Source: Hymenobacter sp. YIM 151858-1
GTDB lineage: Bacteria > Bacteroidota > Bacteroidia > Cytophagales > Hymenobacteraceae
DNA: 64,000 nt
Direction: 5' to 3'
Assembly (NCBI RefSeq): GCF_025979705.1
Contig: NZ_CP110136.1
Coordinates: 3,596,001-3,660,000, forward strand
In this document: positions 153 through 63,584 of the stretch, piece by piece
Layout of the letters: each line of letters starts with the position of its first letter
How positions within the stretch are numbered: the first letter of the stretch is position 1
Notes under the pieces: generated by a model
What the model was told of the DNA's origin: nothing
Database searches by the model: none
What the model saw: only the letters and a program-made list of their open reading frames with translations
Translations under genes and position numbers: made by a program

Positions 153-377
153 AACGCGAAAGTCTGGTGGTGAAGGGGAGGAGCCTTAGCAAGGCAAGAA
201 CGAGGCCAAACTGCCCGCCCGATTGTGCGTAGGCTAATCAGGAAGATAGAACCGTAGGCACCTAGGGCCCGAACGAAAAGCCTGGGTGCACGGTTTAGTA
301 CTATTGCGCGTGCCTACTGTGGCTAAAGCCGCTGGCAAATAAGCTATTCGGAGTAGCCGGTGGGCGGGCATTTCACG

Positions 378-385
378 TATTTTTG
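378..385 (+). promoter_or_regulatory. Candidate -7 promoter box for uvrA
   Basis: The octamer TATTTTTG matches the Bacteroidota primary sigma -7 consensus TAnnTTTG exactly and ends 23 bases before the uvrA ATG. No clear -33 TTG was found at the right distance, so this is a candidate only. The remaining divergent gap from 153 to 408 holds one CCTAGG (261-266) and no convincing gene. Confidence 0.4.
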
Positions 386-408
386 CGGGCTTATTTGCTA
401 CGCACTGC

Positions 409-3400
409 ATGGCTAAGAAAAAAACGGCGGCTGCGGCTGCTGCGGTTGCTCCGGCTTCGGCCCCCACGTCTGCCACGGCTTCGGCCGCTGCTGATGCTTC
501 TGTTGTAACGGTTGACGTACAGCCCGTGGGCTCCAACGGCTCGGTTTCGGCTTACCACTCGTCGGCGGCTACCATCGAGGCGCCTTTTATCGAGGTGTAC
601 GGCGCGCGCGAGCACAACCTCAAGAACGTATCCATTCAGATTCCGCGCGGCAAGCTGGTGGTGTTCACGGGTATTTCGGGCTCGGGCAAGTCGTCGTTGG
701 CGTTCGATACCATTTACGCCGAAGGCCAGCGCCGCTACATGGAGACGTTTTCGGCCTACGCCCGCTCGTTTATGGGCGGGCTGGAGCGGCCCGATGTCGA
801 CAAGATCGAAGGCCTGTCGCCGGTTATCAGCATCGAGCAGAAGACGACCTCGCGCAACCCGCGCTCCACGGTGGGCACCATCACCGAGATTTACGACTTT
901 CTGCGCCTGTTCTACGCCCGCACGGCCGAGGCTTTCAGCTACGTGACGGGCAAGAAGATGATCCGGCAGTCGGACGACCAGATCATCAACTACATCCTCA
1001 AGCACTTCGACGGCAAAAAGCTGGTGGTGCTGGCGCCGGTGGTAAAGGGCCGCAAAGGCCACTACCGCGAGCTGTTTCAGCAAGTGGCCAAGCTGGGCTT
1101 TACGAAGGTGCGGGTTGATGGCGAGCTGCTCGACATCACGCCCAAGATGCAGCTCGACCGCTACAAAATTCACGACATCGAAATCGTGATTGACCGGCTG
1201 GTGGTGAAGGAAGACGACCGGTTCCGCCTGTCGGGTTCGATGCAGAACGCCCTGACGCACGGCAAAGGCACCGCCTTAGTGCTCGACACCGACGCCAACA
1301 AAACGCAGTTCTTCTCGCGCTTTCTGATGGACCCGGCTACCGGCATTGCTTACGACGACCCGGCGCCCAACACCTTCTCCTTCAACTCGCCCTACGGTGC
1401 CTGCCCCACTTGCAACGGCCTAGGTGAGATTCAGCAGATTACGGAGGAGACCGTGATGCCCGACCCCAAGCTGAGCATCAGCCGCGGCGGCATTGCGCCC
1501 CTAGGTGAGTACCGCGACATCTGGATTTTTCAGCAGCTGAACCTGATTCTGAAGAAGAACAAGGCCTCACTGACCACGCCCATCGAGAAGCTGCCGCGCG
1601 AGCTGGTGGAGCGCCTGCTGAACGGCATGCCCGAAGAGGAGGACGATAAGAAAAAGGGCACCTACACCGAGCCGTTCGAAGGCATCATCCCGTTTCTGCA
1701 GCGGCAGATGGATTCCGAATCGGAGAACATCCGCGAGTGGATTCAGCAGTACACCCAGGCCATTGAGTGCCCCGAGTGCCAGGGCTTCCGCCTGAAAAAG
1801 GAGTCGCTGCACTTCAAAATCGACCAGAAGCACATTGGCGAGCTGTCGGTGATGGACATTGGCGAGCTGAGCCGCTGGTTTGAAGGGCTGGAAGAGCGCC
1901 TGTCGGAGCGCCAGAACCTGATTGCCCGCGAGCTGCTGAAGGAGATTCGCAAGCGCATCGGCTTCCTGCTCGAAGTGGGCTTGGAGTACCTGAACCTGCA
2001 CCGCTCGGTGCGCACGCTCTCGGGCGGCGAGTCGCAGCGCATTCGTTTGGCTACCCAAATCGGTACCCAGCTGGTGGGCGTGCTCTACATCATGGACGAG
2101 CCCAGCATCGGCCTGCACCAGCGCGACAACGAACGCCTCATCAACGCCCTCAAGCACCTGCGCGACCTAGGCAACTCCATCATTGTGGTGGAGCACGACA
2201 AGGACATGATTCTGCACGCCGACCACGTGCTGGACATCGGCCCCGGCGCCGGCATTCACGGCGGGCACGTGGTAGCCGAAGGCGAGCCCGACGCTTTCCT
2301 GCGCAGCGGCTCGCTTACGGCGCAGTACCTCAGCGGCGAAAAGCACATTGAGCTGCGCAAGAAAAAGCGCGTGGGCGAGGGCAACGAGCTGGTGCTGAAA
2401 GGCGCCAAAGGCCACAACCTGAAGAACGTAACCCTGAAGGTGCCCCTGGGTAAGCTGGTAGCCGTTACGGGCGTATCGGGCTCGGGCAAGTCGTCGCTCA
2501 TCCACGACACTTTGTACCCTATCCTCAACCGCCACTTCTTCAACGCCAAGCGCGAGCCGCTTGCCTTCCAAACCATTGAAGGCCTCGAGCACATCGACAA
2601 GGTAATTGAGGTGGATCAGTCGCCGATTGGGCGCACGCCGCGCTCCAACCCGGCTACGTACACGGGCGTGTTCACCGAAATCCGCCAGCTGTTCTCCAAC
2701 CTGCCCGAAGCCAAAATTCGCGGCTACGGCCCGGGGCGTTTCTCGTTCAACGTAAAGGGCGGCCGCTGCGAAACATGCGAGGGCGCGGGCCTGCGCACCA
2801 TCGAGATGAACTTCTTGCCCGACGTGCACGTGCAGTGCGAAACCTGCAAGGGCCGCCGCTACAACCGCGAAACCTTGGAGGTGCGCTTCAAGGGCAAGAG
2901 CATCACCGACGTGCTCGACATGACCATTGAGAAGGCGGTGGAGTTCTTCGAAAACCAGCCCCGCATTCTGCGCAAAATCAAGACCCTGGCTGACGTGGGC
3001 CTGGGCTACATCACCCTAGGTCAGCAGGCTACCACGCTGAGCGGGGGCGAGGCGCAGCGCGTGAAGCTGGCCACCGAGCTGAGCAAAAAGGACACTGGCA
3101 AGACCTTCTACATCCTCGACGAGCCTACCACCGGTTTGCACTTCGAGGACATTCGTCACCTATCGGATGTGTTGCAGAAGCTGGCCGACAAGGGCAACAC
3201 GGTGCTCATCATCGAGCACAACCTCGACCTGATTAAGGTAGCCGACCACATCATCGACCTAGGGCCCGAAGGCGGCGCTGGCGGCGGCACGATTGTGGCG
3301 CAAGGCACGCCCGAGCAGGTAGCCAAGGTGAAGAAGAGCCATACGGCGCGTTTTCTGGCCGAGGAGCTCAAGGTCAGCAAGTACGCCGAAGAGAAGCCCG

Positions 3401-3423
3401 GAAAAGCCGAAGAAGCTGCCTAA
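409..3423 (+). CDS. uvrA: Excinuclease ABC subunit A (UvrA)
   Basis: DNA damage recognition ATPase of nucleotide excision repair; it loads UvrB at lesions. The 1004-residue product has the duplicated ABC architecture. Walker A GISGSGKS is at 88-95, with a first zinc module (CPTC, CPEC), LSGGESQ near 538 and Walker B LYIMDEPSIGLH near 560. The second half has Walker A GVSGSGKS near 687, a zinc module of paired CETC motifs near 786-815, LSGGEAQ near 876 and Walker B ending LDEPTTGLH near 900. About 55 Ala/Ser-rich residues precede the conserved start, so the protein is slightly longer than typical UvrA (about 940-960); a later start cannot be excluded. Five of the six in-frame CTA codons found lie in CCTAGG. 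Monocistronic, closed by a strong terminator. Confidence 0.97.
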   Translation: MAKKKTAAAAAAVAPASAPTSATASAAADASVVTVDVQPVGSNGSVSAYHSSAATIEAPFIEVYGAREHNLKNVSIQIPRGKLVVFTGISGSGKSSLAFDTIYAEGQRRYMETFSAYARSFMGGLERPDVDKIEGLSPVISIEQKTTSRNPRSTVGTITEIYDFLRLFYARTAEAFSYVTGKKMIRQSDDQIINYILKHFDGKKLVVLAPVVKGRKGHYRELFQQVAKLGFTKVRVDGELLDITPKMQLDRYKIHDIEIVIDRLVVKEDDRFRLSGSMQNALTHGKGTALVLDTDANKTQFFSRFLMDPATGIAYDDPAPNTFSFNSPYGACPTCNGLGEIQQITEETVMPDPKLSISRGGIAPLGEYRDIWIFQQLNLILKKNKASLTTPIEKLPRELVERLLNGMPEEEDDKKKGTYTEPFEGIIPFLQRQMDSESENIREWIQQYTQAIECPECQGFRLKKESLHFKIDQKHIGELSVMDIGELSRWFEGLEERLSERQNLIARELLKEIRKRIGFLLEVGLEYLNLHRSVRTLSGGESQRIRLATQIGTQLVGVLYIMDEPSIGLHQRDNERLINALKHLRDLGNSIIVVEHDKDMILHADHVLDIGPGAGIHGGHVVAEGEPDAFLRSGSLTAQYLSGEKHIELRKKKRVGEGNELVLKGAKGHNLKNVTLKVPLGKLVAVTGVSGSGKSSLIHDTLYPILNRHFFNAKREPLAFQTIEGLEHIDKVIEVDQSPIGRTPRSNPATYTGVFTEIRQLFSNLPEAKIRGYGPGRFSFNVKGGRCETCEGAGLRTIEMNFLPDVHVQCETCKGRRYNRETLEVRFKGKSITDVLDMTIEKAVEFFENQPRILRKIKTLADVGLGYITLGQQATTLSGGEAQRVKLATELSKKDTGKTFYILDEPTTGLHFEDIRHLSDVLQKLADKGNTVLIIEHNLDLIKVADHIIDLGPEGGAGGGTIVAQGTPEQVAKVKKSHTARFLAEELKVSKYAEEKPGKAEEAA

Positions 3424-3464
3424 CTGCTGTTTAGCTCCTAGGTGCCCAATGCTCCCAGGCACTT

Positions 3465-3507
3465 GCCGCCCCGCCCAATGTTAAATTTTGGGCGGGGCGG
3501 CTTTTTT
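3465..3507 (+). terminator. Rho-independent terminator after uvrA
   Basis: A 14-bp GC-rich stem (3465-3478 with 3488-3501) has a nine-base AT-rich loop and is followed by six T residues. It lies 41 bases past the uvrA stop. Confidence 0.9.
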
Positions 3508-3577
3508 GTGTTGCCTGAATATTCGAGTAATCTTATTTTGGACACTTCCATTCTCACCCACCCACCGTTTGCCTATT

Positions 3578-4012
3578 GTGAAACATCTACTTTTCCCCTT
3601 GCTGCTGGCCATTGCCATCCTGAATGCCCCTGCCAAGGAGGCGCCGCCCAAAGGCACGAAATGGGAAGGCACCATTAGCAACGGCATGAAGGGCGACAAA
3701 ATCAGCTTCGTGGTGTCGCCCGACGGCAAGAAGCTTTCCGAGCTTACTTTTTCGGGCTACTGGCGCTGCAGCGGCAAGCTCGAGCAAACTACCGTGGGCC
3801 CCGATTCGGCCTTTAACATCGTAGGCGGCAAAGTAGCCGGCGTAGCCGTCGATCCGCCCAGCGGCGGCAGCACCGCCTGGCGCTTCGAGGTGCAGGGCGA
3901 GTTCAGCGGCAAAGCCGCGGCCAAAGGCACCTTCCGCATGAACATCAACAACTTGGGCTGCGACACCTACAAGCTGCAATGGGCGGCTGCCCCGGTGGGC
4001 GTGGCTAAGTAG
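3578..4012 (+). CDS. Secreted protein of unknown function
   Basis: The likely start is GTG at 3578, which puts a hydrophobic signal peptide (KHLLFPLLLAIAILNAPA) at the N-terminus. An upstream in-frame ATG at 3488 lies inside the uvrA terminator and is unlikely. The 144-residue product has a compact beta-rich mature domain with WEGTISN near the start and two cysteines (YWRCSG, LGCDTY) that may form a disulphide. I do not recognise the family. It probably acts in the periplasm or outside the cell. Monocistronic, convergent with the lipoprotein operon downstream. Confidence 0.7.
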   Translation: MKHLLFPLLLAIAILNAPAKEAPPKGTKWEGTISNGMKGDKISFVVSPDGKKLSELTFSGYWRCSGKLEQTTVGPDSAFNIVGGKVAGVAVDPPSGGSTAWRFEVQGEFSGKAAAKGTFRMNINNLGCDTYKLQWAAAPVGVAK

Positions 4013-8400: not shown

Positions 8401-8438
8401 ACAAAAAACGGCCCCGCCCTAGGTGGGCGGGGCCGTTT
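8401..8438 (-). terminator. Terminator of the protease gene, CCTAGG in the loop
   Basis: A 14-bp stem (8406-8419 with 8425-8438) has a loop TAGGT, so CCTAGG spans the stem-loop junction. Reading in the minus direction, the stem is followed by a T6 run, as expected for the gene ending at 8467. Confidence 0.88.
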
Positions 8439-12862: not shown

Positions 12863-15085
12863 CTAGCGGCTAAGCTCTTGAAAGTAACGGCGCGACATAG
12901 AGCCCGCAGCCGGCCGCACCGGCGGCGCGGTGGGCACGGGAAGTAAGTTCGTGAGGGCGCGCTCTACCGTTGCCAAATCGGCGGCGCCGGGCTGCTGGCC
13001 CGCCCGCACTTGCTGCAGCACCTGGCGCCAGGCGCGCAGCGTTGCCAGCGAGGCGCCGGGTTGGTTAAGCGCTGCCTGGCTCAGGAGCGTACCCGCTGGT
13101 TGCAAGCGGCCCAGGTCGGTGGGGGCGGGGCGCTGGCCGGCGCGGTAAGCGGCTATTTGCGCCAGTGCCGCGCGCACGGCGGGTTGCGTAGCCGGCGGCG
13201 TGCGTTGGGCCTGGCGCGTGGGCACCTGCACCGCGCTTACGTCGCCCGAAAGGCGCTTTTCGGCCTCGGGCAACGGCGGCAGATCGACGCCGGATTTGCG
13301 CACGTACAGGCGGGTTTGCTGCTGCACTTCCTTCAGCAAGCGCAAAGCGCGGTACTCAAACGGCAGCGCTTCGTTCAGCTTAGCCAAGCGCAGGCGTAGC
13401 TCGGCCTCCCACATTTGGTTGAGCACGGCGCGCAGCTTGCTTTTTACCTGTGGCTCCAAGAAATCGGCGGTTTCTTCGTCCTCGTGCAGGTGCATGTAGG
13501 GCTGCGTCAGGGCCTCGGTGCTGGGGGCGCCTTCGCCGGCAATGGGCAGGTGCTCGTGGCCGTGGTCGTGGCCGTCGTCGTCGCTGTGCTTTTCTTCCTC
13601 AGCGGCTTCGCCTTCTTCGGCAATGGGCGGGCGCGTGGAGGTTTCGGTAATGCCTTTCTCCGATTCTTCGCCCAAAAACTTGCCGTAGCGCAGGCGCAGC
13701 ATCTTCTGGTCGTCGCCTAGATTGTTGGCGCGGCTTTGCAGCTCGGCAGCGGGCAGCTTGCGGCGCAGGGCAATCAGCTTTTCGGTATCGATGATGATCT
13801 GGCGCTGGCTGCGGAAGTACGCGGGCATCTGGTTGACGCCCAGCGAAATGGCAGCCGGACCGCTGGTGGCGCTTGTGTCTTCCCACTGCACCAGGGCGGC
13901 ATCGGTGCGGGCGCGGTGGCCGGCGTTGTCCCAGGCCTCGGCGTACACGTACAGCTCGTCGCCGTAGGTGAGGCCCAAAGCGGGCAGGCGCAGCGTAACG
14001 CTGCCCGTGTGCTGCCGGGGCTTGCTCCCTAGGGCCGCGCTCAAGTCGCGGATGTGCTCCGCGAACTTCACGCCCTCGCCCGAGCCTTGCGCAGTAGTAA
14101 CCACCAACCGGGCCCGCGCCAGGCCGTAGTCATCCTGCAGGGCCACGCGCACCGCCACTTCGGGGCGGCGGCCATATTCCACCAAAGTGTACGGCTTGGG
14201 CGAAGTCATTTTGAGGGTAGGGGCGCGGTCGGGCATCACCTCAATGACGTAGTCCTCCGACTCCTGCCCTGCAAAACGCACGCGGTAAATCGTTGATTTG
14301 CTGACGCGGTACTCGGCCACGTACTGGTTGGGCTGATTAGCCGCCGCCCGAAACGCCAGCGGACGCTGCCCGGCAATCAGCAGCTCCGAAGCCTTAGCCG
14401 GCTTATCGGTGCGCAGCGTCCAGCGAATGGTAGAGCCCTCGGGGCAGCGGAACGACAGCGCTTCGGGAGCAAAAGCGGCCTGGCGCGTGTAAGCCGGCGG
14501 CAGCACCTGCACGGTGGTGGCGAGCAGGCGCGGCGCGGCCGGCGCTTGCGCTGCCTGGGCCGTAGTGGCCGGAAACTGCAGCTGCAACCTAGGCGCTGTT
14601 GGTTGCACTTGGGCTGCGGGCCACAACCACAGCGCTACACCTAGGGCAGCCAAGCCAATGGCCACGCCGGACCTAGGTGCCCACGGCACCCGCAGCGCCG
14701 TGGAGAGCGGCAAATGCAGCAGGCGCTCGGCAACGCGCTCCTGTTGCAGCTTGGCCAAAAAGCCATCGGGTTCGGATAGCAGCAGACCGGTGCTGTCTTC
14801 CAGCTCCGGAAAGTGCCGATCGAGGCGTTGCGCGAGGTGCTCGGTGCCAAAGCCTCGCAAATGCCACAGCGCCACCACCAGCAGGCCCAGTGCCGCCACG
14901 CCCACGCCCAGCCACAGCGCCCGGCTTTGCGGCCAATGGTGCGCCGCGCCTAGCAAAGCCAGCAATGCGCCCGCGCCAATCAGGCCAATCGAGAGGGCCA
15001 CACGCCCTAGGTGCTGGCGCCGCACGCGGGCCAAATGGGCTTGTGCCTCCGCTACGTGCGAATGGTGCTCCTGAACGTGGCTCAT
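12863..15085 (-). CDS. DUF4175 family protein
   Basis: 740 residues from ATG 15085, which overlaps the stop of the upstream BatA gene as ATGA. N-terminal MSHVQEHHSHVAEAQ leads to two membrane segments (about 30-50 and 55-75), then the large DUF4175 region with AQRLDRHFPELEDSTGLLL, EDYVIEVMPDRAPTLKM and RARLVVTTAQG, and a C-terminal helical part. A charged His/Asp/Glu linker (HSDDDGHDHGHEH, about 495-510) could bind metal; that is speculation. Such proteins recur next to MoxR/DUF58/BatA genes in Bacteroidota; biochemical role unknown. Confidence 0.85.
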   Translation of the reverse strand: MSHVQEHHSHVAEAQAHLARVRRQHLGRVALSIGLIGAGALLALLGAAHHWPQSRALWLGVGVAALGLLVVALWHLRGFGTEHLAQRLDRHFPELEDSTGLLLSEPDGFLAKLQQERVAERLLHLPLSTALRVPWAPRSGVAIGLAALGVALWLWPAAQVQPTAPRLQLQFPATTAQAAQAPAAPRLLATTVQVLPPAYTRQAAFAPEALSFRCPEGSTIRWTLRTDKPAKASELLIAGQRPLAFRAAANQPNQYVAEYRVSKSTIYRVRFAGQESEDYVIEVMPDRAPTLKMTSPKPYTLVEYGRRPEVAVRVALQDDYGLARARLVVTTAQGSGEGVKFAEHIRDLSAALGSKPRQHTGSVTLRLPALGLTYGDELYVYAEAWDNAGHRARTDAALVQWEDTSATSGPAAISLGVNQMPAYFRSQRQIIIDTEKLIALRRKLPAAELQSRANNLGDDQKMLRLRYGKFLGEESEKGITETSTRPPIAEEGEAAEEEKHSDDDGHDHGHEHLPIAGEGAPSTEALTQPYMHLHEDEETADFLEPQVKSKLRAVLNQMWEAELRLRLAKLNEALPFEYRALRLLKEVQQQTRLYVRKSGVDLPPLPEAEKRLSGDVSAVQVPTRQAQRTPPATQPAVRAALAQIAAYRAGQRPAPTDLGRLQPAGTLLSQAALNQPGASLATLRAWRQVLQQVRAGQQPGAADLATVERALTNLLPVPTAPPVRPAAGSMSRRYFQELSR

Positions 15086-22546: not shown

Positions 22547-22562
22547 TGCTGCCAACTCCACA

Positions 22563-22595
22563 AAAAAGCCCGGCCACCTAGGCCGGGCTTTTTTG
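22563..22595. terminator. Bidirectional terminator with CCTAGG in the loop
   Basis: AAGCCCGGCC pairs with GGCCGGGCTT across ACCTA, with A6 before and T run after. It serves the porin gene and the convergent TldE-type gene. The CCTAGG at 22577-22582 straddles the loop. Confidence 0.88.
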
Positions 22596-24013: not shown

Positions 24014-25663
24014 CTAGATTTTCCGGGCGGTGTTAATCACGTTCACGCCGTTGAAGCGCGTGGTGGCCGAGCCGTGGCTCACGGCCGAGCTCTGCGAGGG
24101 CTGGCCTTTGCCGTCGTTGAAAAAGCCCACGAGGCGGTAGTCCGACTGGTCGCAGGTGGCGGCGCAGGAGTTCCAGAATTCCAGCGTGTTGGCCTGGTAG
24201 GCCACGTCCTCCAGCATACCCGTGATTTTGCCGTTCTCGATGGCGTAGAATACCTGCCCACCAAACTGGAAGTTGTAGCGCTGCTGGTCGATGGAGAAGG
24301 AGCCATTGCCGGCGATGTAGATGCCTTTCTCCACGTTCTTCACCATGTCATCAACCGAGAGCTTGGTTTTGCTCGGCTGCAGGCTCACGTTGGGCATGCG
24401 CTGGAACTGCACATCCTGCCACGATTGCGCGTAGCAGCAGCCGTCCGACTCGTTTTGGCCCACGATGTGCGCCTGGTCGCGGATCTTCTGGTAGTCCACT
24501 AATTTGCCCTCCTTAATCAGGTCCCACTCCTTGGTTTGCACCCCTTCGTCGTCGTAGCCCACGGCACCTAGGGAGCCGGGCTGGCGTTTGTCGGCCACAA
24601 TGTTGACGAGCTTCGAGCCGTAGGGCTTGCCTTGTTTTTTCCAGTCCAACGTGGCGAACGAGGTGCCCGCAAAGTTGGCTTCGTAGCCCAGCACGCGGTC
24701 GAGCTCGAGGGGGTGGCCCACCGATTCGTGGATGGTCAGACCTAGGTGATGCGGATCGAGCACGAGGTCGTACTTGCCCGGCGTAACCGATTTTGCCGTG
24801 AGCTTTTGCTTGGTTTGCTTGGCGGCCAAAGCGGCGTCCTCCAGAATGTCGTACGAGTTCCGGTAGCCGATAACATCGGAGCCAGCCGGGCCGGCAATCT
24901 TGTCCTGGGCTTTAGGCGTGAGGTACTCGTAGCCCAGGCCCATGGAGGCACTCAGGGCCTGCCGCGTCCGGAACTTGCCCGTGCTGCGGTCGACCACGGT
25001 AATGCCGAACGTGGGCCAGATGCGGTGAATGTCCTGATCGATGTACGAGCCGTCGGTAGAGGCGAAGTACTTCTGCTCGTTCACCTGAAACAGGGCCGAA
25101 TTCACGAACGACGCGCCGTTCTCCATAGCCTTGGCGTTGGCGGCCAGCAGCAAGTCAACCTTTTGGGCAATCGGCACCTCAAACGCGTTTTGCTGAATGG
25201 GTGCTTTCCACGACACCTCGCCGTAGCCTTTCTGCGGGGCCAGCTTCACGGGCTCTTTCTGGGCTTTGGCGTTGGCTTTGGCAATTTGCACAGCCAGCTG
25301 GGCGGCTTTGGCCAAGCCCGCTTCCGATACGTTGTTGGTAGCCGCAAAGCCCCAGGTACCGTTGACAATTACGCGCACCCCGGCGCCGTAGCTTTCGGTG
25401 TTGGCAATGTTCTGCACCTGCTTTTCGCGGGTAAACAGCGCCTGGTTGAGGTAGCGGCCGATGCGCACATCAGCATAGGTAGCGCCCGCCGATTTGGCCG
25501 CGTTCAGGGCTGCATCGGCTAAGCGTTTGTTGATGGCGGCATCCATTACCGGATCGAGCAGGCGGGCCAGCTCTACCGGCTCGCCGGCCAGGCTCGGGAA
25601 CGAAGGCAGGAACAGGGCACCGGCAGCCAGGCTGGTAAGGCCCACAAAGTCGCGACGTTTCAA
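24014..25663 (-). CDS. TldD family metalloprotease, copy A (Tat-exported)
   Basis: 549 residues if TTG 25663 is the start, giving (M)KRRDFVGLTSLAAGALFLPS, a twin-arginine signal; the duplicate gene has TTG at the same place with different upstream sequence, which supports it over an in-frame ATG at 25747. The metal site HESVGH is at 312-317 and is followed by PLELDRVLGYEAN; GSLGAVGYDDEGV and DGCCYAQSW follow. TldD with TldE forms a zinc protease that cleaves unfolded or modified peptides. The Tat signal places this one outside the cytoplasm, unlike E. coli TldD. Confidence 0.9.
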   Translation of the reverse strand: MKRRDFVGLTSLAAGALFLPSFPSLAGEPVELARLLDPVMDAAINKRLADAALNAAKSAGATYADVRIGRYLNQALFTREKQVQNIANTESYGAGVRVIVNGTWGFAATNNVSEAGLAKAAQLAVQIAKANAKAQKEPVKLAPQKGYGEVSWKAPIQQNAFEVPIAQKVDLLLAANAKAMENGASFVNSALFQVNEQKYFASTDGSYIDQDIHRIWPTFGITVVDRSTGKFRTRQALSASMGLGYEYLTPKAQDKIAGPAGSDVIGYRNSYDILEDAALAAKQTKQKLTAKSVTPGKYDLVLDPHHLGLTIHESVGHPLELDRVLGYEANFAGTSFATLDWKKQGKPYGSKLVNIVADKRQPGSLGAVGYDDEGVQTKEWDLIKEGKLVDYQKIRDQAHIVGQNESDGCCYAQSWQDVQFQRMPNVSLQPSKTKLSVDDMVKNVEKGIYIAGNGSFSIDQQRYNFQFGGQVFYAIENGKITGMLEDVAYQANTLEFWNSCAATCDQSDYRLVGFFNDGKGQPSQSSAVSHGSATTRFNGVNVINTARKI

Positions 25664-25745
25664 GGTATTAAGGGTAAGGCAGTGAGAGGAGGAGAGAACC
25701 AGGTGCCTGACCCCAAGTGCCGGGCAGGCACCTAGGGCACAGTGC

Positions 25746-25779
25746 AAAAAGACCCCGCCCGGCCGGGCCGAACGGGGTC
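25746..25779 (-). terminator. Terminator after TldE copy B
   Basis: GACCCCG (25751-25757) pairs with CGGGGTC (25773-25779), with an inner CCCGGCCGGG that can also pair. In the minus direction the stem is followed by a T5 run. It separates the two TldD/TldE pairs transcriptionally. Confidence 0.75.
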
Positions 25780-27342: not shown

Positions 27343-28989
27343 TTACACCTTGCGGGCCGTGTTGATGACGTTGACGCCGTTGAAGCGCGTGGTGGCCGAG
27401 CCGTGGCTCACGGCCGATACCTGTGAGGGCTGGCCCTTGCCGTCGAAGAACGAGCCGAACAGGCGGTAGTCCGACTGGTCGCAGATGGCGGCGCAGGAAT
27501 TCCAGAATTCCAGCGTGTTGGCCTGGTAGGCCACGTCTTCAATCTGGCCGGTGATTTTGCCCTTTTCGATGGCGTAGTACACCGTGCCGCCAAACTGGAA
27601 GTTGTAGCGCTGCTGGTCGATGGAGTACGAACCGCGGCCGGCGATGTAAATGCCCTTGTCCACGTTCCGCACCATGTCGTCGACGCTCATTTTCTGGGTG
27701 CCGGGGCGCAGGCTCACGTTGGGCATGCGCTGGAACTGTACCGAGTCCCAGGAGTCGGCGTAGCAGCAACCATCCGATTCGTTCTGGCCCACGATGTGCG
27801 CCTGGTCGCGGATCTTCTGGTAGTCCACCAGCTTGCCGTCCTTGATCAAATCCCACTCCTTGGTTTTTACGCCCTCGTCGTCGTAGCCCACGGCACCTAG
27901 GGAGCCGGGCTGCAGCTTATCGGCCACGATGTTGACGAGCTTCGAGCCGTAGGGTTTGCCCTGCTTGCGCCAATCGAGCGTAGCGAACGAGGTGCCGGCG
28001 TAGTTGGCCTCGTAGCCCAGCACGCGGTCGAGCTCGAGGGGGTGGCCCACCGATTCGTGGATGGTGAGACCTAGGTGGTTGGGGTCGAGCACGAGGTCGT
28101 ACTTACCCGGCGTAACCGACGGGGCCGTCAGCTTGCCTTTGGCTTGCTTAGCGGCCAAAGCGGCGTCTTCCAGAATGTCGTACGAATTTTTGTAGCCAAT
28201 CAGGCCGGTGTCGGCGGGGCCGGCAATCTTGTCCTGCGCCTTCGGCACCAGGTACTCGTAGCCCAGGCCCATGGGCGCGCTCAGGGCTTCGCGGGTTTTA
28301 AACTTGCCTGTGCCGCGGTCGACGGCCGTTACGCTGAAGTTCGGCCAGATGCGGTGAATATCCTGGTTGATGTACGAGCCGTCGGTGCTGGCGAAGTACT
28401 TCTGCTCGTTCACCTGGAACAGGGCCGAGTTCACGAAGTTGGCGCCGTTGTCGAGGGCTTTGGCGTTGGCGGCCAGCAGCAGCTCTACTTTCTGGGCTAC
28501 GGGTACCTCAAACGCGTTTTGCTGAATGGGGGTCTTCCAGGTAACCTCGCCGAAACCCTTTTGCGGAGCCAATTTCACCGGCTCCTTCTGCACCTTGGAG
28601 TTGGCTTTGGCAATTTGCACGGCCAGCTGCGCGGCTTTGGCAAGGCCCTGCTCGTTCAGCTGGTTGGTGGCGGCAAAACCCCACGTACCGTTGGCCAGTA
28701 CCCGCACGCCCGCACCCAGGCTTTCGCCGTTGGCAATGTTCTGCACCTGCTTTTCGCGGGTGAAAACGCTTTGGTTGAGGTAGCGGCCAATACGCACGTC
28801 GGCGTAGGTAGCGCCGGCCGATTTAGCCGCGTTCAGCGCCGAGTCGGCCAGGCGTTTGTTCATCGCCGCATCGAAGGGCTCGAGCAGGCGCGCCGCATCA
28901 ACGGGCGTGCCGCCAAAGCCCGGAAAGCTCGGCAAGAACAGGGCGCCGACCCCTAGGCCGGTAAGCCCGACAAAATCACGTCGTTTCAA
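27343..28989 (-). CDS. TldD family metalloprotease, copy B (Tat-exported)
   Basis: 548 residues from TTG 28989, starting (M)KRRDFVGLTGLGVGALFLPS, a twin-arginine signal. The zinc site HESVGH is at 311-316. Most of the sequence is identical or nearly so to copy A (YADVRIGRYLNQ, HIVGQNESDGCCYA, GSATTRFNGVNVINTARKV), so the duplication is recent or under strong selection. First gene of the four-gene array and separated from its TldE partner by the palindromic element. Confidence 0.9.
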   Translation of the reverse strand: MKRRDFVGLTGLGVGALFLPSFPGFGGTPVDAARLLEPFDAAMNKRLADSALNAAKSAGATYADVRIGRYLNQSVFTREKQVQNIANGESLGAGVRVLANGTWGFAATNQLNEQGLAKAAQLAVQIAKANSKVQKEPVKLAPQKGFGEVTWKTPIQQNAFEVPVAQKVELLLAANAKALDNGANFVNSALFQVNEQKYFASTDGSYINQDIHRIWPNFSVTAVDRGTGKFKTREALSAPMGLGYEYLVPKAQDKIAGPADTGLIGYKNSYDILEDAALAAKQAKGKLTAPSVTPGKYDLVLDPNHLGLTIHESVGHPLELDRVLGYEANYAGTSFATLDWRKQGKPYGSKLVNIVADKLQPGSLGAVGYDDEGVKTKEWDLIKDGKLVDYQKIRDQAHIVGQNESDGCCYADSWDSVQFQRMPNVSLRPGTQKMSVDDMVRNVDKGIYIAGRGSYSIDQQRYNFQFGGTVYYAIEKGKITGQIEDVAYQANTLEFWNSCAAICDQSDYRLFGSFFDGKGQPSQVSAVSHGSATTRFNGVNVINTARKV

Positions 28990-29106
28990 GTGGGTACTGG
29001 TTAGTGAATACGGTGAGGGAAGTTTAGCGGGAAAAGCCCGGAGTTGCAAAAAGAAGGACGAAATGACTTTGCCAAGGCTGCATGATTTTCAGCAGATGCC
29101 CGCAGA

Positions 29107-34773: not shown

Positions 34774-34822
34774 GCCAACAAAAAACCCGCAGCGCCCTAG
34801 GTGCTGCGGGTTTTTTGTTGGC
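34774..34822. terminator. Bidirectional terminator with CCTAGG in the loop
   Basis: A perfect 20-bp stem (34774-34793 with 34803-34822) includes A6/T6 blocks, so it has T-rich exits on both strands. The nine-base loop GCCCTAGGT holds a complete CCTAGG. Confidence 0.92.
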
Positions 34823-36020: not shown

Positions 36021-37340
36021 CTACAAGGCAAACGAAATGGGGATGGTGTAGGCAACCCGCACCGGCCTCCCGTTTTGCTCGCCGGGTATCCAGCGGCCTG
36101 GCAACTGCTGCACCGCGCGCACCGCAGCCTGGTTCAGGGCGTCGGCCAGGGGCTGCTGGGCCTTGTCGGCTACCTCGATGCCTTTGAGCACTTCGGCGCC
36201 GCTGATCCGGCCATCGGGCTCAACCACAAAATGCACAAACACCTTGCCCGCAAGCTTTGCCGCGGCCGCCTCGGCGGGGTACTTCACGGTAGTGCCTAGG
36301 TCGTGCATCAGGTGCGACATGCCGCCCTGGTATTCCGGCATCTTATCGACGCGGCTGTGTACCTGCTCGGTGCCCCGGTACATCGGCGGGGCAGGTGGCG
36401 GAGGCGGGGCCACCGGTGCCTCGGGTGCTGCGGGCGGCGGGGGCGGGGGCGTGCCAAGCGAGTTCATCTTCTCGCAGGCCACCAGCATCAGCACGGTGGC
36501 GGCCATGGGCAGCACGGCCCATTTGCGCCAGGCCGCGGTGCTTTGGAGGTGGTGTAACATACGAATGCGGTTGAGGGTGTTGGAAGTGGCAAACGTGTGG
36601 GCAAGTGCAGGCGCCGATTGCCAGGCAGCGGTGGCCTGTTGGGCGAGCAAACGGGCGTAGCTGCCCGGCTCTTTAGCGCCCGGCTCACCTAGGGCAGCGG
36701 CATCGGCGAGGTATTCGTGGGTAAGCGCCAGGGCGCGCGGGTAGCAGTACATAAGCGGGCTGAACCACAAGGCCGCGCGGCAGAGCTCCAGCCACAGGCG
36801 GTCGGCGCTGTGGCCTTGGCGCACGTGGGCCAGCTCGTGCATCAGCACCTGCTCGGCCTCAGCGGCGGAAAGCGGGGCGGTGTCATCCCAATACACGGTG
36901 CGGCCAAACGAGCTTACCGGCAGCTGCCCACCCGTGAGGCGCAGCGTGTAGCCGGGCCGGGCTATAGCAGGCAGGCGGCGGGTGAGCAGCCACAGCCTAC
37001 CTAGGCGCAGGCCCAGCAGCAGCAGGCTTGCTGCCGCGCCGCTTATGTAAAGCACCAATAGCCAATCAGTTGTGCGGGCAATGGCTTGCGGGCCGGCGCC
37101 TACGTGCAGCACCGGCAGCACCACCGTGGGCATGCCCAGTTTGCGCACGGCCGCCGCTACGGGCCACCATTGCTCCCAGGGTAGCAGCGGGGCCAGGGCA
37201 GCAAGCAAGGGCGTGAGCAGCAGGTAGGCGCGGTTGTAGCCGAAGCATGCCTCGCGCCGGAGCACCGCCCAGTACAGCAGCCAGCAAGCACCCAGGCACA
37301 GGGTGCTTTGCCACATCCAGTTAAGCAGGCTTGGCATCAT
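36021..37340 (-). CDS. BlaR1-type M56 peptidase fused to a TonB C-terminal domain
   Basis: 439 residues. Three N-terminal membrane helices (about 5-27, 37-55, 92-115), then the zinc peptidase core MHELAHVRQGH (His168, Glu169, His172), a further membrane helix near 272-288, a Pro-rich linker, and a TonB_C domain (about 345-439: VKYPAEAAAAKLAGKVFVHF, VEPDGRISGAEVLKGI). M56 sensors cleave BlaI-family repressors; the TonB domain replaces the penicillin-sensor domain of classical BlaR1. Overlaps blaI by 20 bases, so the two are translationally coupled. Confidence 0.9.
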   Translation of the reverse strand: MMPSLLNWMWQSTLCLGACWLLYWAVLRREACFGYNRAYLLLTPLLAALAPLLPWEQWWPVAAAVRKLGMPTVVLPVLHVGAGPQAIARTTDWLLVLYISGAAASLLLLGLRLGRLWLLTRRLPAIARPGYTLRLTGGQLPVSSFGRTVYWDDTAPLSAAEAEQVLMHELAHVRQGHSADRLWLELCRAALWFSPLMYCYPRALALTHEYLADAAALGEPGAKEPGSYARLLAQQATAAWQSAPALAHTFATSNTLNRIRMLHHLQSTAAWRKWAVLPMAATVLMLVACEKMNSLGTPPPPPPAAPEAPVAPPPPPAPPMYRGTEQVHSRVDKMPEYQGGMSHLMHDLGTTVKYPAEAAAAKLAGKVFVHFVVEPDGRISGAEVLKGIEVADKAQQPLADALNQAAVRAVQQLPGRWIPGEQNGRPVRVAYTIPISFAL

Positions 37341-46691: not shown

Positions 46692-46733
46692 CGGGCACCT
46701 AGGGCGCGGCCATGGCCGCGCCCTAGGTGCCCG
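46692..46733. terminator. 42-base perfect palindrome with two CCTAGG copies
   Basis: 46692-46712 is exactly complementary to 46713-46733, with no spacer (centre GGCCATGGCC). Each arm holds GGGCACCTAGGGCG. Between convergent genes it probably acts as a bidirectional hairpin terminator but lacks T runs. A perfect palindrome of this size is prone to deletion, so its survival is notable. Confidence 0.75.
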
Positions 46734-46757: not shown

Positions 46758-47396
46758 TCAGAAACGCACGCCGGTACGCAGGCGGATGTAAGGCTCGAGC
46801 TGTAGGTTACGCGACCAGCCCGGCAGGGTGTAGTAGCTCTGGCGCTGCAAGCGCAGGCCAGCACCCGCATCGAAGAAGCCGTACTTGCCGAAAGTGCGCT
46901 GCCAGCCCCACATCAGCTCGGCGCTGGGCTGGTAGTTGAAGCACACGGGCCTGTCGGACCAATACGGGGAGCCCGCGCGGGTGAGGTTGTTACTGATTTG
47001 CAGCTGCAGATAGGTGCCATTGAACGGCGCAATTGGCTTGCCCAACCGTTGGCGCCGCGCTTGGCCGTAGTAGTACCGCACCCCGAGCGAGGCGCGAATT
47101 TCGGCGAGCTGCAGCCGGCCCTGCGAAACGCCAAAACCCTGGCGCACGTCGCCGCTGAGCGCAAAGTTGCGGCCCAGTTGGCGCTCTACGCCCGCGTACA
47201 CCGGCACCTGAAAGCCAAACCAACTGCCCCAGGCATCGGCGGCATCGAGCCCCAGCTTAAAAATGGTTTGGGCCGGGGCCGGCGCCAGGGCGGCCGCTGC
47301 CGAGTCGGGGAGGGCGGGGGCCTGACCTAGGGCCTGGCTGACGGATAGCGGCAGGGCCAGCAGCAGACTAGCGGCGGGTGCAAATAGCTTGGGCAC
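46758..47396 (-). CDS. Outer-membrane beta-barrel protein (DUF3575-like)
   Basis: 212 residues if GTG 47396 is used, giving VPKLFAPAASLLLALPLSVS as signal; an ATG at 47477 would precede it by 27 residues. Strands include VPVYAGVERQLGRNFALSG, IRASLGVRYYYGQARRQR, GTYLQLQISNNL and NLQLEPYIRLRTGVRF with the aromatic C-terminus. Same superfamily as 18764, 19577 and 32134. Divergent from the TIG/metzincin gene. Confidence 0.72.
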   Translation of the reverse strand: MPKLFAPAASLLLALPLSVSQALGQAPALPDSAAAALAPAPAQTIFKLGLDAADAWGSWFGFQVPVYAGVERQLGRNFALSGDVRQGFGVSQGRLQLAEIRASLGVRYYYGQARRQRLGKPIAPFNGTYLQLQISNNLTRAGSPYWSDRPVCFNYQPSAELMWGWQRTFGKYGFFDAGAGLRLQRQSYYTLPGWSRNLQLEPYIRLRTGVRF

Positions 47397-52027: not shown

Positions 52028-52077
52028 GCCTAGCCCCTAGGTGCCCGGCCCGGCCCGGGCGCCTAGGGGCTAGGCCT
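52028..52077. repeat. 50-base near-perfect palindrome with two CCTAGG copies
   Basis: GGCCTAGCCCCTAGG at the left is complementary to CCTAGGGGCTAGGCC at the right, and the inner part (GTGCCCGGCCCGG..CCCGGGCGC) pairs with one mismatch, leaving almost no loop. It overlaps the stop codon of the DUF2807 gene and acts as its likely terminator. Second giant palindrome built on CCTAGG arms. Confidence 0.72.
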
Positions 52078-57634: not shown

Positions 57635-58042
57635 GAGGCGGCAAAAAGAGTTGTTTCGCTAGGCAAAACGGGGTTAGGTGAAAGGGCGCGCAAAAGTACC
57701 CGAAGGGGCGCAGAAATCCTTCCCTGAGAACGGTTCTGCTTGCAAGAAAATTTCTCGGCCCTAGGTCCGCCGCTGGCGGCCCGGTGGCGGGCAGCCGGAG
57801 CGGGCTGTTTGGGGCTAGCAATCAGCTGGTTACTGCTGGCGCGTGGCCCGTGCCCGGCCGGCGCCTGCACCGCGTACGCCGCCCCGCTGCCCAGGTGCCT
57901 GCCGGCGTACGCGGTGCAGGCAGCCAAGCCACCCGGCGGCGGCAATAGCGGCGGTTGGCAGCGCATTTCGTAGCTTTTTCGGCGGGGCCACGTAGCAGAA
58001 GCCTGGTGCCCGTATCCATCAGTGCCTTTTTACGCATCCGTT
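57635..58042. other. Intergenic region with a 19-bp perfect inverted repeat
   Basis: A 408-base gap between divergent mgtE and cyanophycinase genes. 57863-57881 (GCCTGCACCGCGTACGCCG) is exactly complementary to 57903-57921, with a 21-base spacer. Neither gene ends here, so a terminator is not needed. It may be a transcribed regulatory hairpin, an operator or a small-RNA terminator; T residues do not follow on either strand. A CCTAGG is at 57760-57765. No gene was found. Confidence 0.55.
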
Positions 58043-58876: not shown

Positions 58877-59061
58877 GTGCCGGCCGCGCCAAATAACAAG
58901 GCAGCACGGCACGGGCCTATTCACTAGTTGAATAATCCTTCTAATATTGGCTTCGGATGGCATCTTGAATGACGTCTCAAATAGTAGGCATGCCGCATTG
59001 TAGGATGCCTGCAACCCCATACATTTAGCTCCCACAACCCTTTTTCCCTTTTCCTTTGGGT

Positions 59062-60312: not shown

Positions 60313-60336
60313 TCACTTGCATTGCCACCCCTCACC

Positions 60337-61749
60337 ATGTATACGTTTCTGAAAAAAGGAGCTCCGGCGCTGGCTTTGCTAGGCTTGGCGCTCGGCAGCT
60401 GCCAGCCCGAGCTGGAAGAGCCCAAGGCTGATGCCGGCTCGTTGGATTTCACCAGCTACGTTGCCATTGGCAACTCCCTGACGGCCGGTTTCCAGGACGG
60501 CGGCTTGTACAACGAAGGCATCCGCAGCTCGTACCCGGCGCTGCTGGCCGAGCAGTTCGGCAAAACCGGCCGCGGCCCCGCCAACTTCGTGCAGCCGCTG
60601 TTTGCCGACAACTTCTCCGACGGCTCGGGCTACGCCAAGCTGGCCAGCTTCGCCAACGGCACGCCGGTTATTCAGCAACCCAGCCAGGCCAACAACTTCC
60701 TGGGCCAGAAGGTAGCCTACACGGGCCGCACCCTGCCCGCGCCGCCGCTGGGCTCGGGCGCCCCCGAGCTGCAGGCCTTTACCGGCAACCAGCCCGATAA
60801 CCTGGGCGTGCCCGGCATTTCGGTGCTGAGCGCCGACCGCACGGCCTCCGCCAACCCGCTGGTGGCCGGCGCGGCCCAGGCCTACGGCAACCTGAACAAC
60901 TACTACCAGCGCATTTTGCCCGCCGCCGACCGCGGCACCACCGACTACGTGTCGTTTATCGGCCGTAAGAGCGCCACGTTCTTCACCTGCTGGATGGGCA
61001 ACAACGACGTGCTGACCTACGCCACCAACGGCGGCGTGGTGGATGCGGGCAACCCCTTCAGCAACCTCACCGACACCACCAGCTTTGGCCGGGGCTACCG
61101 CAACATCGTGCGCACCATCTCCAAAAACGGTACGGTAGCCGGCGTGGTGGCCAACATCCCCAACGTAACCAACGTGCCGTACTTCACCACGGTGCGCGTG
61201 GCCGATATCAAAGCCCGCTTCCGGGCCGCCAACCCCAACCTGAGCCTGTACATCCAGACGACGGGCACGGGCGGCACCACGGTAGTGCGCGAAGCCACCG
61301 ACAACGACCTGCTGACGCTGCCCTCGCTGGCCGTTATCGGCACGGCCACCACGGGCAACCCGTTCCCGGTGGGTGCCGGTTTGTCGGCCACGGCGGCCAA
61401 CCCGCTGCCCAACCGCTTCGTGCTCGATAACACGGAGGCGGCCAGCGTGCAAACCCGCACCACCCAGCTGAACGGTATTATCGCCAAAACGGCCCGCCAG
61501 TACAAGGTGGCCCTGGCCGACATGAACACGTTCTTCGGCTCGGTAGCCCTGAGCGGCTTTGCCATCAACGGCACCGTTAACTCGGCCAGCTTCTTGTCGG
61601 GCAACCTGTTCTCGCTCGATGGCGTGCACCCCACGCCGCGCGGCTACGCGGTGGTTGCCAACGAGTTCATCCGGACCATCAACACGTACTACGGCACGAG
61701 CATCCCGTTCACGAACCCGAACGAATACCGCGGCGTGGTTTTCCCGTAA
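60337..61749 (+). CDS. SGNH/GDSL-type lipase lipoprotein
   Basis: 470 residues from ATG 60337. Lipobox LGSC (Cys22). Block I is AIGNSLTAG with Ser47, block III MGNNDVLTY near 222, and block V DGVHPTPRG with Asp428 and His431. The large insert between blocks (FNNYYQRILP...TTSFGRGYRN) has beta-hairpin character. A lipase or esterase at the cell surface; probably in one operon with the FadL gene. Ends with a strong terminator. Confidence 0.9.
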   Translation: MYTFLKKGAPALALLGLALGSCQPELEEPKADAGSLDFTSYVAIGNSLTAGFQDGGLYNEGIRSSYPALLAEQFGKTGRGPANFVQPLFADNFSDGSGYAKLASFANGTPVIQQPSQANNFLGQKVAYTGRTLPAPPLGSGAPELQAFTGNQPDNLGVPGISVLSADRTASANPLVAGAAQAYGNLNNYYQRILPAADRGTTDYVSFIGRKSATFFTCWMGNNDVLTYATNGGVVDAGNPFSNLTDTTSFGRGYRNIVRTISKNGTVAGVVANIPNVTNVPYFTTVRVADIKARFRAANPNLSLYIQTTGTGGTTVVREATDNDLLTLPSLAVIGTATTGNPFPVGAGLSATAANPLPNRFVLDNTEAASVQTRTTQLNGIIAKTARQYKVALADMNTFFGSVALSGFAINGTVNSASFLSGNLFSLDGVHPTPRGYAVVANEFIRTINTYYGTSIPFTNPNEYRGVVFP

Positions 61750-61773
61750 TCGCGCTTAATACCGTACCTAAAG

Positions 61774-61806
61774 CGGCCAGCAGGAACCCTTCCTGCTGGC
61801 CGTTTT
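61774..61806 (+). terminator. Terminator of the FadL/GDSL operon
   Basis: A perfect 13-bp stem (CGGCCAGCAGGAA at 61774-61786 with 61790-61802), loop CCC, followed by TTTT. Confidence 0.88.
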
Positions 61807-62017
61807 GCGTTTGTGCTTCCTGGTGTTGCCCTTGGTTTTTGCAGCTGATATAAGCTCGTTTTTGGCATGAAGATGTGATGCATCGAGCGGGTAATTTCTT
61901 ACGGGCGGCCCCAGGTCAATGGGGATATAGCACAATCGTGTCGGGGTAAAATTCTGTTTGCGGTGCTTGGCGGGTGTAGAATTGCATCATCATTCACGAC
62001 CACTCAATACAACCGCT

Positions 62018-62506
62018 ATGAAAACCCTGCGCTTCCCCCTGTACCTGGCCCTAGGTGCCGCCACCCTGCTTACCGCCGCCTGCAAAAAGGACAAGGACAA
62101 AGACGAGCCGAAGCCCAAAACCAAAACCGAGCTGCTGACCGACAAAAACTGGATGATGACGGCCCAGACGGTGAGCCCGGCCATGCGCACCAACACGGGG
62201 CGCGTCATCACGGATTTGTACGCCGAAATGGACCCCTGCGACCAGGACGACCTGCTGCAGTTTGCCAAACCCGACGCCTACACCCTGAACGAAGGCGCCA
62301 CCAAGTGCAACCCCAGCGGCCCGCAGTCTTACCCCGGCACGTGGTCGTTTGGCAGCAACGAAAGCACCCTTACGCTGAAACTGGGCAACCAGGACCCGAA
62401 CACCTACACCGTGCAGGAAATCAGCGACAACACCATGCGCCTCACCGAAAGCGGCACTTCGGGCGGCACCTCGTACACCATCACCTACACGTTCAGCAAG
62501 CGCTAA
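62018..62506 (+). CDS. Lipocalin-like lipoprotein
   Basis: 162 residues from ATG 62018. Lipobox LTAAC (Cys22), a Lys/Asp-rich linker (KKDKDKDEPKPKTKT), then a beta-barrel with TELLTDKNWMMTAQTVSP, DDLLQFAKPDAYTLNEGAT, WSFGSNESTLTL and NTYTVQEISDNTMRLTESG. This is the pattern of small lipocalin-like exported proteins of Bacteroidota (Lipocalin_4-like). The gap before it (61750-62017) shows no gene apart from the terminator. Paralogue of the partial gene at 63749. Confidence 0.8.
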   Translation: MKTLRFPLYLALGAATLLTAACKKDKDKDEPKPKTKTELLTDKNWMMTAQTVSPAMRTNTGRVITDLYAEMDPCDQDDLLQFAKPDAYTLNEGATKCNPSGPQSYPGTWSFGSNESTLTLKLGNQDPNTYTVQEISDNTMRLTESGTSGGTSYTITYTFSKR

Positions 62507-62519
62507 ACACGCAGCAACG

Positions 62520-62557
62520 GCAACGGCCGCTGCCCTAGGTGGGGCAGCGGCCGTTGC
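62520..62557. terminator. Terminator with CCTAGG across the loop
   Basis: 16-bp perfect stem (62520-62535 with 62542-62557), loop TAGGTG, so CCTAGG (62534-62539) spans stem and loop. Between convergent genes. Confidence 0.88.
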
Positions 62558-62579
62558 AGCTTTGGGCAGACTGCGGCAC

Positions 62580-63584
62580 CTAGGGCATGGGCGTAACGGA
62601 CTGCAGCTGCGCGGCCAGGTGGCGGGCAATCACCTGCGCGTGGTGCCGGCCGTTCTCGATAAACCAGCGGCTGGTATTGAGGCCGCCGCACACGGTGCCG
62701 GCCAGGTACACCCCGGCGCGGTTCGTCTCGAAGGTTTCGTCGTGGTAAGTGGGGGTGCAGGCGCCGTCGTTTTGGGTGCTGATACCTAGGGCCGCGAGCA
62801 GGGCGTAATCGGGGCGGTAGCCGGTGAGGGCGTACACGAAGTCGGCGGGCAGGGTGCGGGGGCCTTCGGGCGTAAGCACATCCACCTCGCCGGGCCGGAT
62901 GGCCCGCACCGTGGTGTGGTAGTAACAGCCGATGCGGCCTTCGGCAATGCGGTTAAGCAAATCGGGCCGCAGCCAGTACTTCACCGACTGCGATATTTCG
63001 GCGCCGCGCACCACCAAAGTGGCCTGGGCGCCCGAACGGTTGAGCGCCAACGCGGCCTTGGCTGCCGAGTTTTTAGCCCCCACCACCACTACGCGCTGGC
63101 CCGCGTGGGCGTAGGGCTCTTTGTAGTAATAGCTTACGTGCGGCAAATCGGCCCCCGGCACGCTCAGGCGGTTGGGTACGTCGAAAAAGCCCGTGGCCAC
63201 AATTACGCGGCCGGCCTGCAGCTGCCCGCGCCCGGTGTGCAGGGTAAAGTTGCCGGCTTCGCCCGCGAGGCGCAGCACGCGCTCGTAGAGGCGCAGGGTA
63301 AGGCGCTCGGCTTCGGCCACGCGGCGGTAGTAGTCGAGGGCTTCTTCGCGCAGGGGTTTGTAGTTGCCCGTCACGAAGGGGTAGCCGCCGATTTCGAGCA
63401 GCTCGGGCGTCGAGAAGAACTCCATGTTGGTAGGGTAGCCCACTACCGAGTTCACGAGGGCGCCTTTATCCACCACGCAGGTGCGCAGCCCCAGGCGCTG
63501 GGTTTCGATGGCGCAGGCCAGGCCTACCGGGCCGGCGCCCACTACCACCACGTCGAAAAGGCTATCAGCAACAGTATTTTCCAT
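62580..63584 (-). CDS. ypdA: YpdA-type (bacillithiol disulphide) reductase
   Basis: 334 residues. FAD-binding GAGPVGLACAIETQRLGLRT (16-35), GYPTNMEFFSTPELLEIGGY typical of YpdA, a second Rossmann motif VVVVGAKNSAAKAALAL, and YALTGYRPDY and VYLAGTVCGG near the end. Reduces bacillithiol disulphide with NADPH in Firmicutes and is also found in Bacteroidota. No CxxC is visible, as expected. TAG stop lies within CCTAGG (62579-62584). Flanked by two lipocalin-like lipoprotein genes. Confidence 0.88.
   Translation of the reverse strand: MENTVADSLFDVVVVGAGPVGLACAIETQRLGLRTCVVDKGALVNSVVGYPTNMEFFSTPELLEIGGYPFVTGNYKPLREEALDYYRRVAEAERLTLRLYERVLRLAGEAGNFTLHTGRGQLQAGRVIVATGFFDVPNRLSVPGADLPHVSYYYKEPYAHAGQRVVVVGAKNSAAKAALALNRSGAQATLVVRGAEISQSVKYWLRPDLLNRIAEGRIGCYYHTTVRAIRPGEVDVLTPEGPRTLPADFVYALTGYRPDYALLAALGISTQNDGACTPTYHDETFETNRAGVYLAGTVCGGLNTSRWFIENGRHHAQVIARHLAAQLQSVTPMP

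Follow-up and report, generated by a model that had tools for sequence, protein, structure and literature searches.

CCTAGG in the window and among Bacteroidota genomes

The stretch analyzed here comprises 64,000 nucleotides of Hymenobacter sp. YIM 151858-1 (contig NZ_CP110136.1, positions 3,596,001 to 3,660,000; hereafter the window) and contains 84 copies of the hexamer CCTAGG, against a mononucleotide expectation of 21.5. The first bases of these cores are found at positions 261, 1419, 1500, 2166, 3015, 3258, 3437, 4100, 5057, 5147, 5380, 7602, 8418, 8846, 9236, 9845, 11356, 11869, 12592, 14028, 14588, 14640, 14672, 15006, 15278, 15461, 16399, 16668, 17124, 21343, 21789, 22417, 22577, 22680, 24567, 24741, 25731, 27896, 28070, 28952, 29251, 29325, 29908, 30726, 31111, 32000, 32126, 33876, 34200, 34796, 36295, 36688, 37000, 39201, 41763, 41907, 42199, 42850, 43630, 44100, 46354, 46698, 46722, 47326, 50365, 50914, 51705, 52036, 52062, 52927, 53754, 54657, 55006, 55609, 55768, 56223, 57760, 58081, 58741, 58872, 62050, 62534, 62579, and 62785, the last core ending at 62790. 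Five of them (1419, 1500, 2166, 3015, and 3258; span 1419–3263, plus strand) are located within uvrA (409–3423; Pfam UvrA_inter, 1e-33, and UvrA_DNA-bind, 2e-23). An earlier, sequence-only reading had called CCTAGG a highly iterated palindrome with about 84 copies for about 20 expected, and our count agrees with both numbers. It had also described other CTAG contexts as fewer, which is borne out: 84 of the 121 CTAG in the window belong to CCTAGG, and the remaining 15 CTAG hexamers occur 0–9 times each. The extended octamers ACCTAGGG (30 copies) and CCCTAGGT (23 copies) dominate as stated, together making up 53 of the 84 sites.

Enrichment is confirmed to be real and genome-wide rather than a window effect. 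The 4.62-Mb genome (G000) contains 5,325 CCTAGG versus 75 copies of the reversed control GGATCC. Most statistics for G000 were obtained from a sample of 464 kb, made up of the window and 20 further stretches of 20 kb each. Here, CCTAGG (n = 552) reached 5.3 times the order-1 and 6.5 times the order-2 Markov expectation and was the top-ranked hexamer by either ratio, which substantiates the iteration claimed by the sequence-only reading. Other CTAG palindromes fell below the order-1 expectation (GCTAGC 0.26-fold, ACTAGT 0.34-fold, and TCTAGA 0.16-fold). A maximal-order Markov test in the window gave 76.9 expected for 84 observed copies, because CCTAG and CTAGG are found almost only within CCTAGG. 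The valid yardsticks are therefore lower-order models and the genomes of relatives.

For the latter, a first scan covered 148 relatives, 90 of them from the same family, and a second one sampled the phylum evenly with 395 genomes, of which 385 were new, resulting in 533 distinct Bacteroidota genomes. Only five exceed 5,000 CCTAGG (5,325–7,530 copies), namely G000, G005, and G007 from one genus, and G058 and G079 from another. Next in rank is G130 with 1,349 copies; this count and those of G102 (807), G052 (661), and G067 (574) may represent relic or incipient states. Apart from G000, the phylum-wide draw yielded no new genome above 734. Five unenriched congeners of G000 contain 123–249 copies in 4.9–6.3 Mb. 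With 5 of 90 family genomes enriched, the motif is not family-wide, and the idea that it is a trait of the lineage as such is not supported. A similar picture emerged for 80 named uvrA loci from GTDB genomes: the sole dense one belongs to Solirubrum puertoriconensis MC1A (1.48 sites/kb), which we infer to be G007, while the next 19 ranged from 0 to 0.20/kb and the last 60 together had 18 sites in 1.21 Mb. No iterated motif of their own was seen in the five unenriched congeners in 40–60 kb each, an amount of sequence in which weak ones could escape.

An oriented unit with a second element

In G000, palindromy turned out to be limited to the CCTAGG core. An outer A (or complementary T) was present on one side only in 516 of the 552 sites of the G000 sample, on both sides in 9, and on neither side in 27. 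The full unit in G000 is an oriented ACCTAGG[G/C], so that of the earlier designation the iterated part stood and the palindrome did not. An origin of this asymmetry in coding constraints was rejected, as the one-sided flank persists in 161 of 174 intergenic sites. In the window, 40 sites are oriented in plus direction (ACCTAGG without T after it), 36 in minus direction (CCTAGGT without A before it), and 8 are non-oriented.

A second block of information was located between positions −29 and −24 relative to the first C of the core, on the A side only. Expectation maximization (EM) without a preset word, applied to 515 G000 sites, returned GCTGCC starting at −29 ± 1, which corresponds to 22 ± 1 bp upstream of the A. 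Its log-likelihood was 399, compared to 162 and 185 in two control regions; per site, this amounts to 0.78 nats versus 0.31 far upstream, 0.36 downstream, and 0.51 at a control core. The same word was recovered at the same place from 557 sites of G005 (460 kb sampled), with 0.77 nats per site versus 0.30, 0.36, and 0.49 at the control core. The control scores partly reflect codon periodicity and are spread out, whereas the motif signal sits at one place. Within the window alone, GCTGCC with at most one mismatch precedes 14 of 76 oriented sites versus 16 of 304 control placements. Exact copies were found on the plus strand at 22548–22553 (site 22577), 36660–36665 (site 36688), and 47296–47301 (site 47326), and on the minus strand at 57790–57795 and 58900–58905, upstream of the minus-oriented sites 57760 and 58872. 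We rejected terminators or a repeat family as the source of the distal element: coding sites have GCTGCC too, and the flanks look diverse (60 sites, inspected by eye).

The enriched lineages differ in what surrounds the common core. Besides ACCTAGG[G/C], we found CCCTAGGG in 154 of 322 sites of G058 and ACCTAGGT in 156 of 275 sites of G079, both palindromic. The latter two dialects were derived from 220 kb per genome, the EM analyses of G058 and G079 from 420 kb each, and 60 kb were sampled from G007. The G058 sample (L039 and L041–L050) additionally contains a second over-represented word around AGCATCTCTAC/AGAGATGC, perhaps a repeat family (CATCTCTA 45 times versus 0.8 expected when both strands are counted).

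Gain, retention, and placement of sites

Alignments show that the sites were gained by substitution. An unenriched congener could be aligned at 51 window sites, and at none of them does it read CCTAGG, while aligned hexamers of similar composition are kept at 30–37% in the same genomes. Eighteen counterparts are one base off, 15 of these at position 3 or 4, and they include transversions (CCGAGG 4, CCAAGG 2, and one each of CCTTGG, CCTCGG, ACTAGG, and CCTAGT) as well as transitions (CCCAGG 4, CCTGGG 3, and CCTAAG 1). Deamination or a Dcm/Vsr-type mutation as sole source was rejected on account of the transversions. Leucine codons of the congener at site positions (n = 37; CTG 16, CTC 6, TTG 4, and CTT 3) are close to general usage (CTG 0.56, CTC 0.23, TTG 0.11, and CTT 0.05), so no single mutation type explains the gain; it is the end product that is favoured.

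These data bear on the explanation by mutation bias or composition, in which the word would owe its frequency to codon usage, to GC content, or to a hotspot of mutation. In its favour, coding sites lie mostly in one phase, xxC-CTA-GGx, encoding Leu-Gly. However, in C-preceded Leu-Gly pairs CTA makes up 49% of the leucine codons in G000 (n = 636), 56% in G005 and G007 (198), 48% in G058 (382), and 71% in G079 (236), compared to 3–7% among other leucine codons in the enriched genomes. Congeners of similar GC content have 0.02–0.07 sites/kb, the transversions among the precursors mirror codon usage, and intergenic density exceeds coding density. Simple composition or codon bias is refuted by codon choice and congener counts, and we consider any explanation of this kind highly improbable.

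Once gained, sites tend to be kept. In the enriched relatives, 48 of 64 window sites are retained in G007 and 53 of 74 in G005, versus 53% of control hexamers. CTA is identical at 70% (G005) and 79% (G007) of site positions, compared to 26% and 39% for CTA elsewhere. Conversely, CTG in would-be sites (C-CTG-GG) is kept at only 39% and 38%, versus 69% and 66% elsewhere. The drive towards the motif is still ongoing between enriched relatives.

Regarding placement, intergenic DNA carries 2.0–3.4 sites/kb and coding DNA 0.9–1.25/kb, with genes called by a simple codon-usage model of open reading frames. By gene arrangement, intergenic density was 1.33/kb between divergent, 2.54/kb between tandem, and 2.19/kb between convergent genes. 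Sites are scarce in DNA presumed to be recently acquired. On the smaller contigs C2 (140 of 158 kb read) and C3 (100 of 101 kb read), 21 sites were counted in 240 kb, and 6 of these are one-sided; three 20-kb chromosomal stretches (L006, L110, and L112, two of which are adjacent) have one site each; and window coding DNA alignable to no relative has none in 2.1 kb, which is little DNA. The spacing of sites is exponential (Kolmogorov–Smirnov p = 0.65), and an evenly spaced architecture was rejected. Orientation is independent of the GC-skew arm (Fisher p = 0.54 in G000 and 0.80 in G005). Chi and KOPS (FtsK-orienting polar sequences) are replication-polarized oriented motifs, some with thousands of copies; the CCTAGG motif is likewise oriented but lacks a leading/lagging bias in G000 and G005, and a role of this type was rejected.

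Close pairs are mostly inverted, i.e., 39 of 51 pairs under 60 bp apart versus 106 of 193 at 60–240 bp, in pooled counts in which some G000 and G005 pairs are possibly the same orthologous pair. A folding comparison gave a minimum free energy of −16.3 versus −11.7, with a control that was not matched in composition. In the window, two cores in inverted orientation at a distance of 24 bp (ACCTAGGGC...GCCCTAGGT) are located at 46698–46727, and two cores 26 bp apart form part of an inverted repeat at 52036–52067, the second without flanking A or T. Further cores occupy the loops of terminator-like hairpins at 8418–8423 (minus strand; GGCCCCGC ... GCGGGGCC) and 34796–34801 (minus strand; AAAAAACCCGCAGC ... 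GCTGCGGGTTTTTT), lie in a terminator-like hairpin at 22577–22582 (plus strand; AAAAAAGCCCGGCC-ACCTA-GGCCGGGCTTTTTT), or occupy the loop of a long inverted repeat at 62534–62539 (minus strand; GCAACGGCCGCTGC ... GCAGCGGCCGTTGC). Near-identical inverted repeats of the CGAAACGCCCGCCCGGCAGCTGCCGGGCGGGCGTTTCG type, ending in CCTAGGT...ACCTAGG, were also noticed elsewhere in the sampled sequence (L002:14083–14180 and 14987–15070) and resemble a small family of repetitive extragenic palindromes or terminators. In addition, the two PmbA/TldD metallopeptidase paralogues of the window (24014–25747 and 27343–29049) carry CCTAGG at matching positions (24567/27896 and 24741/28070) in near-identical context.

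What may drive the accumulation

Among the candidate drivers of motif accumulation, biased DNA uptake or transfer ranks first in our view, with a probability of roughly 0.5. This assignment follows from the match of the traits described above with published passages on the DNA uptake sequences (DUS) of Neisseriaceae and the uptake signal sequences (USS) of Pasteurellaceae. Such passages describe over-representation in the core genome, absence from recent genes, and inverted pairs for DUS (PMC2397512), DUS dialects with a common core (PMC3630211), a lack of orientation bias and a higher frequency in non-coding DNA for uptake sequences (PMC1939737), and an extended motif of a core plus further elements for USS (PMC7811141). 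The CCTAGG motif likewise comes at about one oriented copy per kb, was gained by point substitution, reaches a higher density in non-coding DNA, is scarce in presumably recent DNA (C2, C3, and islands), is conserved between relatives, and shows no orientation bias; close copies form inverted repeats, some in terminators, dialects share a core, and the core is accompanied by a further element, as in USS. CCTAGG would accordingly be the central part of a two-element, oriented motif of the chromosome, 5'-GCTGCC-N(22±1)-ACCTAGG[G/C]-3', both elements of which might be read by one receptor. An uptake or transfer system would prefer fragments bearing it, and homologous replacement by DNA from relatives would slowly enrich the genome in matching sequence (molecular drive), as in Neisseriaceae and Pasteurellaceae, with an own dialect in each enriched lineage. 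The receptor would have to function without a PilB/PilT-type ATPase; natural transformation of Riemerella, likewise a member of the Bacteroidota, appears to do so. Riemerella is reported to transform by means of ComEC, DprA, ComF, and proteins that do not resemble established uptake systems (PMC8459023), and a preference for own DNA is described for R. columbina, with no convincing motif found there (PMC7965970).

Several observations weigh against biased uptake. PF00437, the ATPase of type IV pili and type II secretion, had no match in the five enriched genomes and matched only 2 of 28 genomes overall, one of them below cut-off. ComEC is present in all 16 genomes examined, irrespective of enrichment, and a receptor search in the comEC neighbourhood revealed no gene specific to the enriched genomes. 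A DUF5689 lipoprotein-like candidate, suggested by Riemerella genetics, was rejected, since all eight genus members have it whereas G058 and G079 do not, so that it does not track the motif. The few genes inspected thus yielded no candidate for a motif-specific receptor such as ComP. Flanks of conserved sites at 7–30 bp are as diverged as control flanks (0.889 vs. 0.888), leaving no trace of local recombination; locally raised recombination was rejected on this basis, and the neutral flanks differ from those of Neisseria DUS, which are more diverged. Known DUS are not palindromic, but two of the three dialects found here are. Their distal element is weak at best: G058 has a T-rich signal at −18 to −16 that scores below the control core by EM, and in G079 EM of the upstream sequence yielded none. 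The five enriched genomes are three scattered lineages of one family, and C2, C3, and the islands may be poor in sites merely as recent arrivals. Further differences from DUS and USS are the occurrence in Bacteroidota, the shorter core, the GC-rich second element about two helical turns away, and the scattered instead of clade-wide enrichment. As no pilus ATPase turned up and uptake is a presumption, we did not file the motif as a DUS. In raw counts, the comEC locus carries 9, 8, 6, 9, and 7 sites per ~3.9 kb in the five enriched genomes, which is above average.

The sequence-only reading had pointed to cyanobacterial HIP1 (highly iterated palindrome 1) and to methylation. In the model of Elhai 2015, a methyltransferase recognizing the motif and methylation-directed mismatch repair would create and keep the sites. 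Passages on alternate HIPs report a sporadic spread, alternate motifs in single genomes, and about one copy per kb (PMC4390886), and the short palindromic core and its extreme over-representation are shared as well. The full units are palindromic in G058 and G079 and oriented in G000 and G005. PF02384 has matches in four of the five enriched genomes (all except G007), and PF01555, found in G000, G007, and G058, lies within site-rich DNA in G000 (L111) and G058 (L116). However, PF00145 is restricted to G000 and G079, and PF07669 is lacking in G007 and matches G005 below cut-off. None of these four families, the only ones searched, is common to all five enriched genomes, and G005 and G007, which belong to the same clade and use the same dialect, share none over cut-off. 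The cognate methyltransferase that the methylation link calls for was thus not found among the families tested, which disfavours this link. Several methyltransferases are located in site-poor DNA (L110, L112, and L114), the smaller contigs are unenriched, and orientation with a distal element 22 bp away, as in G000 and G005, is unexpected from an enzyme with a palindromic site. A HIP1-like origin therefore appears improbable to us.

Alternatively, a sequence-specific chromosomal protein inside the cell, e.g., a nucleoid organizer, a factor in recombination or repair, or part of a defence for which the motif signals "self", could bind the bipartite site, with a small benefit per site. An oriented two-part site resembles a protein footprint, sites are retained between species, the chromosome is marked and C2 and C3 are not, and the palindromic variants of G058 and G079 would suit a dimeric protein. 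On the other hand, random spacing without strand or arm bias is ill-suited to replication, segregation, or Chi-like roles, selection on thousands of individual sites is demanding, relatives of the same genus manage without the motif, and no shared protein was found among the few examined. We consider such a reader a real but rather unlikely possibility, second to biased uptake or transfer and ahead of a HIP1-like origin.

A more far-reaching form of biased uptake or transfer can be pictured, which we offer tentatively and rate below even odds. Some Hymenobacteraceae might perform sequence-selective exchange without a type IV pilus, by a surface or transfer machine reading a ~36-bp tag (GCTGCC-N22-ACCTAGG), of which no fewer than three dialects, all built around CCTAGG, would have evolved independently. 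No self-DNA tag would precede it in Bacteroidota, and uptake signals would have originated a third time, by a separate mechanism, besides their origins in Neisseriaceae and Pasteurellaceae. It is a long-standing question whether pure molecular drive or selection spreads uptake signals, and the two families studied so far both use type IV pili. In the present case, a few species possess the trait while close congeners lack it, codon choice is near-saturated, and new dialects have arisen, so that comparisons between genomes can test how the motif is gained, how it spreads, and how specific it is. Should the driver be something other than uptake, an oriented 36-bp mark across the whole genome, for which no reader is known, would be stranger still. 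In line with the sequence-only reading, which knew of no description for this lineage, we found no earlier account of an iterated, oriented CCTAGG motif in Bacteroidota in the open-licence PMC literature; GCCTAGGC is listed as an under-represented word in another genome in a passage of PMC1939737.

Regarding other words, CGATCG (0.06-fold), GGATCC (0.16-fold), and TCGCGA (0.21-fold) were strongly depleted against the order-2 expectation in the G000 sample. Counts of GGATCC ranged from 1 to 645 across the genomes of the family and may mark restriction history. Members of the order with elevated counts, i.e., G130 (1,349 CCTAGG), G102 (807 CCTAGG), and G116 (1,805 GGATCC), possibly harbour further iterated words or relics of such.

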